NCBI GenBank assembly: GCA_023511295.1
Contig: JAIMBT010000016.1
Location: 1 to 64,000 of the forward strand
DNA: 64,000 nt
Direction: 5' to 3'
Source: Alicyclobacillus sp.
GTDB taxonomy: Bacteria; Bacillota; Bacilli; Alicyclobacillales; Alicyclobacillaceae
Shown in pieces: positions 44,897-62,524 of this stretch. The translations under genes were made by a program, and so were the position numbers. Every line of letters begins with the position of its first letter. The stretch's first letter is position 1. The notes beneath the pieces were generated by a model. That model made no database searches and was not told where the DNA came from. It saw only the letters and a program-made list of their open reading frames with translations.

Positions 44897-45100
44897 ACGT
44901 CGTCACCGCCTTTTGCGCGTCCTGCTTGATGTGTCCAGGTGCCGCGGATGGATTGGACACGCCAGACACTCTCAGGTATACGCGCGGGCGGTGGATGGGA
45001 TGCAGCGGGGATACGACGGCTGTCCGATGATACCCAGGCCCCAGTGGGTGGAGCGAAGGGGCCTGGGAAGGCGATGTGTCACCTGCGCCAGGAGCGGTAG

Positions 45101-45176
45101 GCGCGGTCAGGCGCGGTCAGGCGCGGTCAGGCGCGGTCAGGCGCGGTCAGGCGCGGTCAGGCGCGGTCAGGCGCGG
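45101..45176. repeat. 10-bp tandem repeat, seven copies
   Basis: GCGCGGTCAG repeated seven times without a mismatch from 45101 to 45170, then a partial GCGCGG. It lies in the 330-bp gap between dedA and the cytochrome c gene; the rest of the gap holds no gene I can support. The period of ten is about one helical turn. Confidence 0.97.
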
Positions 45177-58544: not shown

Positions 58545-58907
58545 ATGGAACGCTGGGTACACGGCGTGCGGGTGCGCGGGGTGGAGGTCGACGAAGCGAC
58601 TCGGTGCCGCCACTATCACAAGGCGGAGGACGTGGTTGCCATCCGCTTCCCCTGTTGCGACACGTATTACCCGTGCCACGCCTGTCACGAAGAGACGGCA
58701 GGGCACGAGGCGGCGCGTTGGCCGGCGAGCCGACTGTCGGAGCGGGCGGTGCTGTGTGGGGCGTGTGGGACGGAGTTGACCATCTCGGCTTACGTAGCGG
58801 CAAAGGACCACTGCCCGGTCTGCCAACATCCGTTCAATCCGCGGTGCGCGTCTCACTATGAGCTGTATTTTGAATTGCCATCGGAGGAGGTTTGTGCGGA
58901 TGCGTGA
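58545..58907 (+). CDS. CHY zinc-finger protein
   Basis: 120 residues; ATG 58545 with GGAGGGG upstream. The CHY fold has CRHYHKAEDVVAI, FPCCDTYYPCHACHEE, CGACGTELTI and CPVCQHPFNPRC, enough Cys/His for about three zinc ions. Function in bacteria is unknown. The stop overlaps the VOC gene by 8 bases. Confidence 0.88.
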   Translation: MERWVHGVRVRGVEVDEATRCRHYHKAEDVVAIRFPCCDTYYPCHACHEETAGHEAARWPASRLSERAVLCGACGTELTISAYVAAKDHCPVCQHPFNPRCASHYELYFELPSEEVCADA

Positions 58908-59310
58908 TGGAGCGAGAGAGGCGACGCAAGACACGGCGCTGCACGGGTTGTGCGTCAAGTTTGCCAGCGTGCCAGTGAGAGACCAGGAGAGGGCGCTGCA
59001 GTTTTACGTGGAGAAACTTGGCTGCAAGGTTCGGACGGACGTTCCCTTTGGCAACGGCATGCGGTGGATTGAAGTGGAGCCGCCGGGCGGAGGCTGCGGC
59101 ATCGTGCTATTCACGCCGCCAGGTCAAGAGGGGCGGATTGGCACCTTCACGAATATCTCGTTCACGTGTGACGACGTGGAGGCGACGTACCGGGTGCTCG
59201 CCGACCGGGGCGTGGAGTTCGTGGAACCGGCGAAGCGTGCCGACTGGGGCGGAATGCAGGCGATATTCAAGGATGTCGACGGGAACCTGTTCGTGCTGGC
59301 GGGCGAGTAG
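58900..59310 (+). CDS. VOC-superfamily (glyoxalase/bleomycin-resistance-like) protein
   Basis: 136 residues, ATG 58900 after GGAGGAGG. Two beta-alpha-beta modules: KFASVPVRDQERALQFYVEK and ISFTCDDVEATYRVLADRG, ending FKDVDGNLFVL with a likely metal Asp/Glu. Could be a lyase, dioxygenase or binding protein. Confidence 0.87.
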   Translation: MRDGAREATQDTALHGLCVKFASVPVRDQERALQFYVEKLGCKVRTDVPFGNGMRWIEVEPPGGGCGIVLFTPPGQEGRIGTFTNISFTCDDVEATYRVLADRGVEFVEPAKRADWGGMQAIFKDVDGNLFVLAGE

Positions 59311-59341: not shown

Positions 59342-59575
59342 CGGTTGCGGACGGGGGGCAGGGGGGCAAAGTTGGGCCTGCTTGGGCGCACAAGGGAACG
59401 CCGTTCCGTTGTGGAGGCCGGGACTGGGCCGCGGAGCGGGAATAGAGGAACGGCGTTCCGCTAAGGCGGTTGCGGACGGGGGGCAGGTCGGCCCACAGGG
59501 CCCCTCCAATGCGCACAAGGGAACGCCGTTCCGTTGTGGAGGCCGGGACTGGGCCGCGGAGCGGGGCCGGGGTCC
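59342..59575. repeat. Repeat array 1 (two ~125-bp units)
   Basis: First unit 59342-59466, second from 59467, truncated near 59575. Each begins CGGTTGCGGACGGGGGG and contains GGAACGCCGTTCC (59395-59407, 59520-59532); the first unit also has GGAACGGCGTTCC at 59447-59459. The unit recurs beyond the padR operon at 60985-61598. Frames stay open here by GC bias; no gene is supported. Confidence 0.95.
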
Positions 59576-59592
59576 CGTCCCCCTCTCGGATA

Positions 59593-60549
59593 TCATGCCG
59601 CTTGCGCCGATGCTCGATCGCCGCGCTGGCGGTCGAACCGACGGAACAGGGCCAACAAGAGACCCAGGACCATGGCGCGAGCGGCGACGGTGATGATCAG
59701 CTGCAACACGGTGAAGGTGTCTGTGAACGGGTTCCAATGCCCCCAAAGTGCCGGATTTCCGGTCAGGTGGTACAGGGCCGCCTGTGCCGCGTTGCGCACC
59801 GGGAACAGCAGTCCCTCTGCGACGGATAAGGCGATGGGAAACAGGCTGACGATGCGGTTTTGGGTCCAACGATACAAGGCCAGACCGAGACCGAACAGAA
59901 TGGTGCACCCTGCGAGGAACGCCGGATCCAGTAAGTGTACGGGACCCATGGCTCCGTAGAAGGTGAGTGTGGCACCAAGGCTCGGCGTGTGCAGGGCGCG
60001 CTGTCCAATCCAAGCGCATGCGAACAGCAGGATCGTCACGCCAATCCCGCCCCGATCTCGCCGGCTCCGGCACCGAAACATGGCCAAGCACGCGAGGGTC
60101 CAAGCCAGCATCAGCGACGGTGACAAGGGAAAGCCTTGCGTGAATAGGGAGACCCACCTGGGTGGGTGCCACGGAATTTCCATCGACGGGACGGGTGGCA
60201 CGGCCCAGTACAGGGCGTAGAGGCTGCACAACAGCAGTACCACGCCGATACAGGCGACGATGAGCAGCACGCTAGGCGGGTACCCGAGGGCCTCGCGATC
60301 TATCTGCCGCCGCAATTCCCGCGGCACTCCGAACTGGTGGATGGCATGTGCAACGGCTTCGTCCGGGGTCTGCCCTCGATCGGCGAACTGTGAAACTTGC
60401 TCGAGAAGGTGGGCGGTCATTTCCGCCGTCCAGTCCGCCTGTTCCCGCCGGGTGAGCACTGGGGTGCACACGATCCGCCGAACGTACGCCTCCAACTCCC
60501 GCTGCACTGCCGCTATCTCCTCCGCCGACCACGTTCCGAACCCGCTCAT
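59593..60549 (-). CDS. Multi-helix membrane protein with HAAS-like N-terminus
   Basis: 318 residues, ATG 60549 with CGAGGAGGGGAAC upstream. The cytoplasmic first 85 residues (ELEAYVRRIVCTPVLTRREQ ... EAVAHAIHQFGVPRELRR) match the helical HAAS domain found in proteins encoded beside PadR regulators. Six to eight helices follow. Overlaps padR by 4 bases. Such pairs often sense envelope stress or drugs; the function here is unknown. Confidence 0.8.
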   Translation of the reverse strand: MSGFGTWSAEEIAAVQRELEAYVRRIVCTPVLTRREQADWTAEMTAHLLEQVSQFADRGQTPDEAVAHAIHQFGVPRELRRQIDREALGYPPSVLLIVACIGVVLLLCSLYALYWAVPPVPSMEIPWHPPRWVSLFTQGFPLSPSLMLAWTLACLAMFRCRSRRDRGGIGVTILLFACAWIGQRALHTPSLGATLTFYGAMGPVHLLDPAFLAGCTILFGLGLALYRWTQNRIVSLFPIALSVAEGLLFPVRNAAQAALYHLTGNPALWGHWNPFTDTFTVLQLIITVAARAMVLGLLLALFRRFDRQRGDRASAQAA

Positions 60550-60875
60550 GCGTTCCCCTCCTCGAGCAAGCGACCGATGACACGTTGTTGAACCGACCAT
60601 GCGGCGCGCAGGTGTTCCAGGTGTTTCCTACCCCGATCTGTCAATGCGTAGTACCGCCGCCGCGGTCCGTCGTCGTCGCCGCCCCAGTAACCTTCGACGT
60701 ATCCCTCCGCCTCCAGACGGCGGAGACACGGGTAGAGCGTGCCCTCCTTCAGCGACAGCACGCCTTCGCTGCGATCGTTGACCTGTTTGGCGATGGCATA
60801 ACCATAGGTGTCCCCACGCGACAGAATTGCGAGCACGACGGCGTCAACGTGGCCCTTCAGCATGTCGCGGTGCAA
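60546..60875 (-). CDS. PadR-family transcriptional regulator
   Basis: 109 residues from TTG 60875, seven bases after GGGGGTG; GTG 60881 and one at 60899 are alternatives. Winged helix with HVDAVVLAILSRGDTYGYAI, SLKEGTLYPCLRRLEAEGYV and RRRYYALTDRGRKHL. It should bind the palindrome at 60911-60931 and control itself and the membrane protein. Confidence 0.9.
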   Translation of the reverse strand: MHRDMLKGHVDAVVLAILSRGDTYGYAIAKQVNDRSEGVLSLKEGTLYPCLRRLEAEGYVEGYWGGDDDGPRRRYYALTDRGRKHLEHLRAAWSVQQRVIGRLLEEGNA

Positions 60876-60910
60876 GATCACGCACCCCCTTTGGAACATT
60901 GATGAGTCAA

Positions 60911-60931
60911 ATACATAGACTATCTATGTAT
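60911..60931 (-). promoter_or_regulatory. Palindromic PadR operator overlapping the promoter
   Basis: ATACATAGA (60911-60919), CTA, TCTATGTAT (60923-60931): perfect 9-bp arms with a 3-bp centre, containing the ATACAT/ATGTAT core seen in PadR operators. On the minus strand TTCATT and TATGTA are 18 bases apart, and the palindrome covers the -10, so binding would block transcription. Confidence 0.75.
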
Positions 60932-60984
60932 ATGGAATGAAGATACGACACCCGTCACCAGGGTGTCAATGGTCAGGGCCGTGC

Positions 60985-61598
60985 TCGGGGGGCAAAGTTG
61001 GGCCTGCTTGGGCGCATAAGGGAACGCCGTTCCGTTGTGGGGGCCGGGACTGGGCCGCGGAGCGGGAATAGAGGAACGGCGTTCCGCTAAGGCGGTTGCG
61101 GACGGGGGGGGCAGGTCGGCCCACAGGGCCCCTCCAATGCGCACAAGGGAACGCCGTTCCGTTGTGGGGGACGGGATCGGGCCGTGGAGCGGAAATAGAG
61201 GAACGGCGTTCCGCTAAGGCGGTTGCGCACGGGGGGCAGGGGGCGGGGGGCAAAGTTGGGCCTGCTTGGGCGCACAAGGGAACGCTGTTCCGTTGTGGGG
61301 GCCGGGATCGGGCCGCGGAACGGGAATAGAGGAACGGCGTTCCGCTAAGGCGGTTGCGGACGGGGGGCAGGTCGGCCCACCGGGCCCCTCCAATGCGCAC
61401 AAGGGAACGCCGTTCCGTTGTGGAGGCCGGGAATGGGCCGCGAAACGGGAATAGAGGAACGGCGTTCCGCTCAGGCGGTTGCGGACGGGGGGCAGGTCGG
61501 CCCACCGGGTCCCTGCAATGCACACAAGGGAACGCCGTTCTGTTGGGGGGGACGAGATCGGCCCGTGGAACGGGAATAGAGGACCGGCGTTCCCTTGT
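60985..61598. repeat. Repeat array 2 (five ~125-131-bp units)
   Basis: Palindrome GGAACGCCGTTCC starts at 61021, 61148, 61279 (one change), 61404 and 61529 (one change); its partner GGAACGGCGTTCC starts at 61073, 61200, 61331, 61456 and 61581 (one change), always exactly 52 bp later. Units alternate between two leader types, one with CAAAGTTGGGCCTGCTTGG and one with CAGGTCGGCCCAC, though the last two are both of the second type. No promoter or gene seen in the array. Confidence 0.96.
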
Positions 61599-61632: not shown

Positions 61633-62400
61633 CTACCGCTCCAGGTGCCGTAAGAACGCCTTGACCGCCAGCGCGGCCGCGCGCGGGGCTTCGATGGGGA
61701 TGAAGTGGCCCGTGTCCAACTCGACCAGTTCGGCGTTCGCCAAGCGCTCGGCCAGTAGTTGGGCGTCTGCCGGATTGGATACCCCGTCCTCGCGTCCGGA
61801 GAGTACGAGGGTGGGGGCTTGAACCCGCGACAAATCCGCGCGCACGTCGTAACCGTTGTACCGCTCGAAGAGACCGCGGATGGTTTCCGGTGCCGTACTT
61901 TCCATGCCGCGCTGCATGCCGGCAATCATCGTCTCCGACGTGCGGCTTCCCGCCCCGCGGCGCACGAACGCACCGTTCGCGACGGACGCAATCAACTGTT
62001 CCAACTCGTCCGCGGACACGCGGAACTGCGCCCGCGGCGACATCAGCACCAGAGCGGACACCCGATTGGGGTGGCGAACCGCCAACGTCAGACAGACGGC
62101 TGTGCCGTACGAGATCCCGAGGCAGACCACCCGGTCAAGTCCCACCTTCCCAAGCAAGCCGGCCACCATGTCCGCGTTGTCCGAGACGGACAGCGGGTCT
62201 CCGGGGGATCGCCCGTGGCCGGGCAGGTCGACGTAGAGGCAGTCGTAGTTGCGGAAGTACGGGCGCATCCCGACCCACGATTCAATCGCACCCCCCATTC
62301 CGTGCACAAACAACAGCGCGGGGGCCGAAGGCCCCAAGCCTTCCTCTGGCAACGCGCGCTCGTAATAGATATCCCGTTGTCCAACGGTGCAGATGGGCAT
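61633..62400 (-). CDS. Alpha/beta-fold hydrolase
   Basis: 255 residues, ATG 62400 with GGAGGGATAGACA upstream. FVHGMGGAIESW oxyanion region, nucleophile in CLGISYGTAV, Asp in LSGREDGVSN and His in DTGHFIPIEAP. Small esterase or C-C hydrolase type; substrate unknown. Confidence 0.88.
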   Translation of the reverse strand: MPICTVGQRDIYYERALPEEGLGPSAPALLFVHGMGGAIESWVGMRPYFRNYDCLYVDLPGHGRSPGDPLSVSDNADMVAGLLGKVGLDRVVCLGISYGTAVCLTLAVRHPNRVSALVLMSPRAQFRVSADELEQLIASVANGAFVRRGAGSRTSETMIAGMQRGMESTAPETIRGLFERYNGYDVRADLSRVQAPTLVLSGREDGVSNPADAQLLAERLANAELVELDTGHFIPIEAPRAAALAVKAFLRHLER

Positions 62401-62433: not shown

Positions 62434-62524
62434 CCCAAGGCCCCAGCGGCGTGATGCCCGGGAAACCGCCGCCCCAAGGCCCCAGCGGCGTGATGCCCGG
62501 AACATCGGTGTCCCAAGGCCCCGC
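62434..62524. repeat. 39-bp direct repeat, about 2.3 copies
   Basis: CCCAAGGCCCCAGCGGCGTG followed by ATGCCCGG occurs at 62434 and 62473, and its first 12 bases again at 62512. It sits in the 376-bp gap between the divergent hydrolase and rocD genes, where I see no other gene. Confidence 0.9.

Follow-up and report, generated by a model that had tools for sequence, protein, structure and literature searches.

Paired palindromes spaced mostly at whole helical turns form a family of dispersed intergenic elements in some acid-loving and soil bacteria

In the genome of Alicyclobacillus sp., a two-gene padR operon lies between two clusters of a palindromic repeat, which raises the question of what the repeats are and whether they are tied to the operon that they flank. 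The clusters were noticed within a stretch of 64,000 nucleotides (hereafter the window), and the original prediction offered four possible roles for them: a transposable or REP-like element, a family of structured RNAs, a protein-binding array, or a recombination site through which the operon arrived. We counted 13 palindromes in the window, with cores of the GGAACGCCGTTCC / GGAACGGCGTTCC type, distributed over two clusters at 59390-59537 and 61016-61598. Searching for GGAACGNCGTTCC with at most one mismatch returned 14 matches in the window, including one unrelated match; 100 shuffles gave 0.38 on average and never more than three, which indicates that the clusters are real.

The 13 copies form seven units, six of which retain both palindromes. 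Cluster 1 consists of a pair at 59390-59464 (cores 59395-59407 and 59447-59459, 52 bp apart) followed by a third palindrome at 59515-59537 (core 59520-59532, 73 bp past the second), whose expected partner at 59572 has been destroyed. Cluster 2 consists of five pairs, which lie at 61016-61090 (cores 61021 and 61073), 61143-61217 (61148 and 61200; 75 bp past the preceding palindrome), 61274-61348 (61279 and 61331; 79 bp past, with the excess in G tracts), 61399-61473 (61404 and 61456; 73 bp past) and 61524-61598 (61529 and 61581; 73 bp past). The recount agreed with the predicted arrangement, as the distance within a pair is 52 bp in all six complete pairs while the steps from one unit to the next are 73, 75, 79, 73 and 73 bp. 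The palindrome had been described as exact and 13 bp long; it is present, but its conserved length is 23 bp and three of the 13 copies carry one mismatch (61279, GGAACGCTGTTCC; 61529, GGAACGCCGTTCT; 61581, GGACCGGCGTTCC). The window also contains two other tandem repeats, namely nine copies of the 10-bp CAGGCGCGGT at 45089-45176 and 2.3 copies of a 39-bp repeat at 62434-62522, just past the hydrolase gene described below.

We determined how far the repeat extends beyond the window by pattern searches of genomes and sequence stretches. One unit compared by blastn with the host assembly (3.43 Mb, 42 contigs) gave 98 matches across many contigs. Allowing one mismatch, we counted 130 palindromes in the host genome and 13 matches to a reversed control. 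Pairs of GGAACNNNGTTCC separated by 49-79 bp numbered 55, compared with none for the reversed pattern; these pairs are grouped in about 20 arrays. Paired palindromes were found in two of 41 genomes of the family, those of the host and of Alicyclobacillus ferrooxydans (299 pairs, control 0), and a third genome has a few looser sites. Outside the family, a public genome collection yielded carriers with the same flanks in at least 10 Paenibacillaceae species, comprising Gordonibacillus (54 pairs), three Cohnella and six Paenibacillus, and the other counted Paenibacillaceae genomes have 2 to 41 pairs, with controls of 0. A stricter flanked motif matched only six of 399 Bacilli genomes, which indicates that the palindrome family is rare and patchy. 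A plasmid search with one tetrad (the four-palindrome unit described below) gave no match. Of three matches among viral contigs, one was to a contig of the same size as one from Gordonibacillus and another fell within phage coding sequence, so that these matches were uninformative. Neither the palindrome motif nor the carrier genomes turned up in a literature search. The repeat is thus a member of a dispersed family of intergenic DNA elements found in certain acid-loving and soil bacteria.

Several other families that contain GGAACNNNGTTCC were set aside because their flanks differ, namely those of Curtobacterium, Viridilinea and Saprospiraceae and a 68-bp array in Paenibacillaceae MAGs. In Curtobacterium genomes (L084, L089, L090, L097, L109, L115, L125, L131, L137, L142), GGAACCWGGTTCC-type pairs are inverted, are separated by exactly 49 bp and have the inner flanks GGACAC/GTGTCC, which looks like a separate REPIN-like family. 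Saprospiraceae MAGs (L069, L072, L075, L098, L103-L105, L129) contain dispersed TACCCCGGAACNNNGTTCCGGGGTA-type palindromes, and the Paenibacillaceae MAGs (L095, 6463-7155; L166, 3253-4567) contain long 68-bp tandem arrays of GGAACTSAGTTCC that lack helical phase.

The dispersal of the arrays also bears on the operon in the window. Both of its genes are on the minus strand and encode a 335-residue membrane protein (59593-60600), with a weak Pfam match to PF14023 below the cut-off, and a 117-residue PadR-family regulator (60546-60899; PF03551, E=1.7e-26). A glyoxalase-family gene on the plus strand (58858-59310; PF00903, E=4.2e-21) is the convergent neighbour of cluster 1, and the 3' end of an alpha/beta hydrolase gene on the minus strand (61633-62400; PF00561, E=6.9e-28) adjoins cluster 2. 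The padR operon is missing at most other arrays, and 13 further family genomes have homologues of the membrane protein, whereas only one family genome besides the host has paired palindromes, which suggests that the operon has no special tie to the arrays and that both genes are probably bystanders. Given these observations, and array neighbourhoods that share no gene family beyond widespread ones, a recombination site that imported the operon is not supported.

Comparison of all carriers gave the consensus ATARCGGAAC-NNN-GTTCCGYTAT, a 23-bp palindrome in which the middle triplet is free. The pair, which the original prediction rightly took to be the conserved element, is itself part of a larger design. 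In most Paenibacillaceae, the usual unit is a tetrad with successive spacings of 51/52, 62 or 73, and 51/52 bp, whereas palindromes in A. ferrooxydans and two Cohnella species follow one another in tandem at 51/52 bp, and in the host 52/73 tetrads are linked to each other at distances of 73-79 or 92-95 bp. In P. oryzisoli, the outer half-sites differ from the inner ones, which gives the tetrad an overall dyad. Seven Gordonibacillus elements (L101, L132, L213, L214, L217, L220, L227) have two GGGAAAT direct repeats in their P3-P4 spacers.

Spacings cluster at whole turns of the helix. Among short spacings, 251 of 252 distinct ones measure 50-53 bp, and the 89 intermediate spacings include 28 at 61-64 bp, 57 at 71-75 bp and none at 65-70 bp. 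Across 384 distinct spacers, a period of 10.42 bp gives the best fit (R=0.886), and the periodicity has p=0.013 for recurrent classes but is not significant (p=0.28) when every rare class is counted as well. Two of the five 7-turn gaps in the window are off phase, as gaps of 75 and 79 bp correspond to 7.2 and 7.6 turns, and their extra bases sit in G tracts. Descent from a few ancestral elements could also account for part of the common spacing.

We also compared constraint on the palindromes with that on the DNA between them. Spacer sequences from different arrays are close to random, with identities of 0.42 in the host (0.37 when shuffled) and 0.36 in Gordonibacillus (0.29 when shuffled). 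Spacer lengths are held closely, at 52 bp in 17 of 18 non-redundant host spacers and at 50-52 bp in all 25 from Gordonibacillus. Because the sites had been found by their exact cores, we tested positions outside the bait. Among 48 elements found through one exact pair, 38 had another pair where it was predicted to lie, matching the core at 16 or more of 20 positions, while none of 794 control placements reached 16 of 20 (maximum 13). Within one Gordonibacillus subfamily, unbaited cores differ from their own consensus at 1.5-3.8% of positions and spacers at 16-34%, with the exception of one already degenerate half-site that mismatches in 22%.

The elements are also distributed unevenly with respect to genes. 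Of 76 elements, 24 lie in convergent, 46 in tandem and six in divergent gaps, compared with 28% divergent gaps in the background (P about 1e-5), which indicates that divergent regions are avoided; as genes were defined by simple longest-ORF calls, this is a strong trend rather than a census. An idea formed by eye in Gordonibacillus, that elements lie near intrinsic terminators, was not supported (7 of 79 elements versus 6 of 114 other gaps). One host contig (C2; L044, 1-1646) starts inside a 16S gene, upstream of which are a promoter-like sequence, a palindrome array of ~0.9 kb and then the 3' end of the adjacent gene. Near-copies of this array, 85-94% identical and in matching orientation, are found at five further host contig ends, which may also border rRNA operons. 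In G006, a fully assembled relative, none of the 11 16S genes is accompanied by such an array.

The symmetry of the units could mean that each palindrome, or each 52-bp pair, acts as a hairpin in RNA or as a cruciform. Single units fold favourably (z about -2 to -3.7), which is to be expected of any strong palindrome. However, in an alignment of 17 host sequences the single-palindrome hairpin model had fewer paired cells than every one of 500 shuffles, the position beside the core was unpaired in 10-12 of the 17 sequences, and a stem formed between the arms 52 bp apart showed no covariation and no excess of pairing. Complementarity at flanking positions within palindromes was no higher than for re-paired halves, and between neighbouring palindromes it did not exceed permutation, with one of seven comparisons at p=0.04. 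Rfam returned nothing relevant except 16S, so that neither compensatory stem changes nor a match to a curated family was found. Because the arms do not covary, a conserved RNA hairpin or cruciform, including the long hairpin originally proposed, is disfavoured and we consider it improbable. The same lack of compensatory changes had been named, together with confinement of the unit to this locus, as the mark of a simple local duplication; the unit does occur elsewhere. Near-identical units inside one array indicate that arrays do grow by duplication, but both the motif and its spacing recur across genera and in arrays that are not linked, which refutes local duplication as their source and leaves a functionless tandem duplication very improbable indeed. 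The repeat pattern is not that of a CRISPR array, as spacers repeat within arrays and the period differs between genomes.

Palindromes in helical phase are the kind of site expected for a regulator, and the rRNA-adjacent array lies upstream of a promoter-like sequence, so the tetrads might be classical transcription-factor operators that serve as promoter or enhancer sites of a regulon. This is unlikely given that divergent regions are avoided, many elements lie between convergent genes, and the neighbours have no common function or gene. Somewhat less unlikely, though still doubtful, is that the units are selfish non-autonomous mobile elements (MITE- or REPIN-like) without host function, whose palindromes are recognised by a transposase that spreads them. 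Some copying of elements has clearly happened: dispersed copies in one Gordonibacillus subfamily have homologous spacers and a conserved left extension of ~60 bp, and elsewhere homology stops near the outer palindromes. The patchy distribution, and the P. oryzisoli tetrad with its resemblance to two transposon ends, also fit mobility. On the other hand, five of eight carriers lack a Y1/RAYT transposase, including the host, whose assembly is 99.6% complete (PF01797 is absent in G000, G019, G411, G412 and G416, partial in G410 and G415, and full-length in G413), and no target-site duplication was seen by eye at tetrad ends; mobility driven by RAYT is not supported. Moreover, old copies retain their palindromes and spacing as the spacers decay, which makes dead insertions unlikely.

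Among known systems, the closest in form are the REP/BIME elements of Enterobacteria and Pseudomonas, which are likewise short, clustered extragenic palindromes with alternating spacers and many copies per genome. REP/BIME elements are largely kept out of divergent promoter regions, as are the elements described here, and the numbers found between called genes (55 pairs in the host and up to 299 in relatives) match the REP-like dispersal that the original prediction entertained. Unlike REP/BIME elements, those studied here belong to a different phylum, are built as tetrads with spacings mostly of whole helical turns, have arms that do not covary and occur mostly, among the carriers tested, without a tyrosine transposase. 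REPINs with RAYT are similar in having paired palindromes at a fixed distance dispersed within one genome, but here no RAYT accompanies the elements in five of eight carriers, and a symmetric double-stranded signal is conserved rather than a hairpin. Helix-phased multi-site arrays that bind protein include Fis sites upstream of rrn P1, resolvase res sites and centromere-like arrays. Such arrays resemble the present elements in repeating one palindromic site several times at intervals of whole turns and, for one of our arrays, in lying upstream of a ribosomal RNA operon; they differ in that our elements number dozens to hundreds per genome and their binder is only putative. Part of the definition of REP is a GTAG or CGTC tag at one end (PMC3733652). 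The flanks of the consensus, ATARC and GYTAT, contain neither tag.

Symmetric half-sites, a free centre, the lack of pairing covariation, helical phase and constraint on each copy point to a putative dimeric protein that binds double-stranded DNA. We therefore favour, with a probability of about 0.6, the interpretation that the arrays are BIME-like interspersed non-coding intergenic elements that act as helically phased, double-stranded binding arrays for such a protein, which makes a protein-binding array the best fit of the four roles first proposed, with binding itself being what we infer. The working part would be the 23-bp palindrome, read as double-stranded DNA by a sequence-specific dimer of which each subunit would take one half-site of ~10 bp and leave the middle 3 bp unread. 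Palindromes are placed at 5, 6 or 7 helical turns (50-52, 61-64 or 71-75 bp), usually in a tetrad of 5, 6/7 and 5 turns and in some genomes in longer arrays. Whole-turn spacing would put bound dimers mostly on one face of the helix, so that they could assemble cooperatively to wrap, bridge or block the DNA. Most of the elements follow genes, and in the host at least one rRNA operon has an array upstream; our guess is a structural or insulator/roadblock role. Our analysis linked no candidate binding protein to the arrays.

A bolder and less probable possibility is that these bacteria have a sequence-directed chromatin or insulator system, in which a dedicated accessory protein would polymerise on phased tetrads after genes and before rRNA operons, isolating or folding the chromosome at sites that number from dozens to hundreds. 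Interspersed palindromic repeats of bacteria are mostly taken as hairpins or as remnants of transposition. In the two Bacillota families considered here, what is constrained in each copy is the double-stranded sequence together with its helical phase, a pattern that predicts a single, specific DNA-binding protein for which there are many sites.
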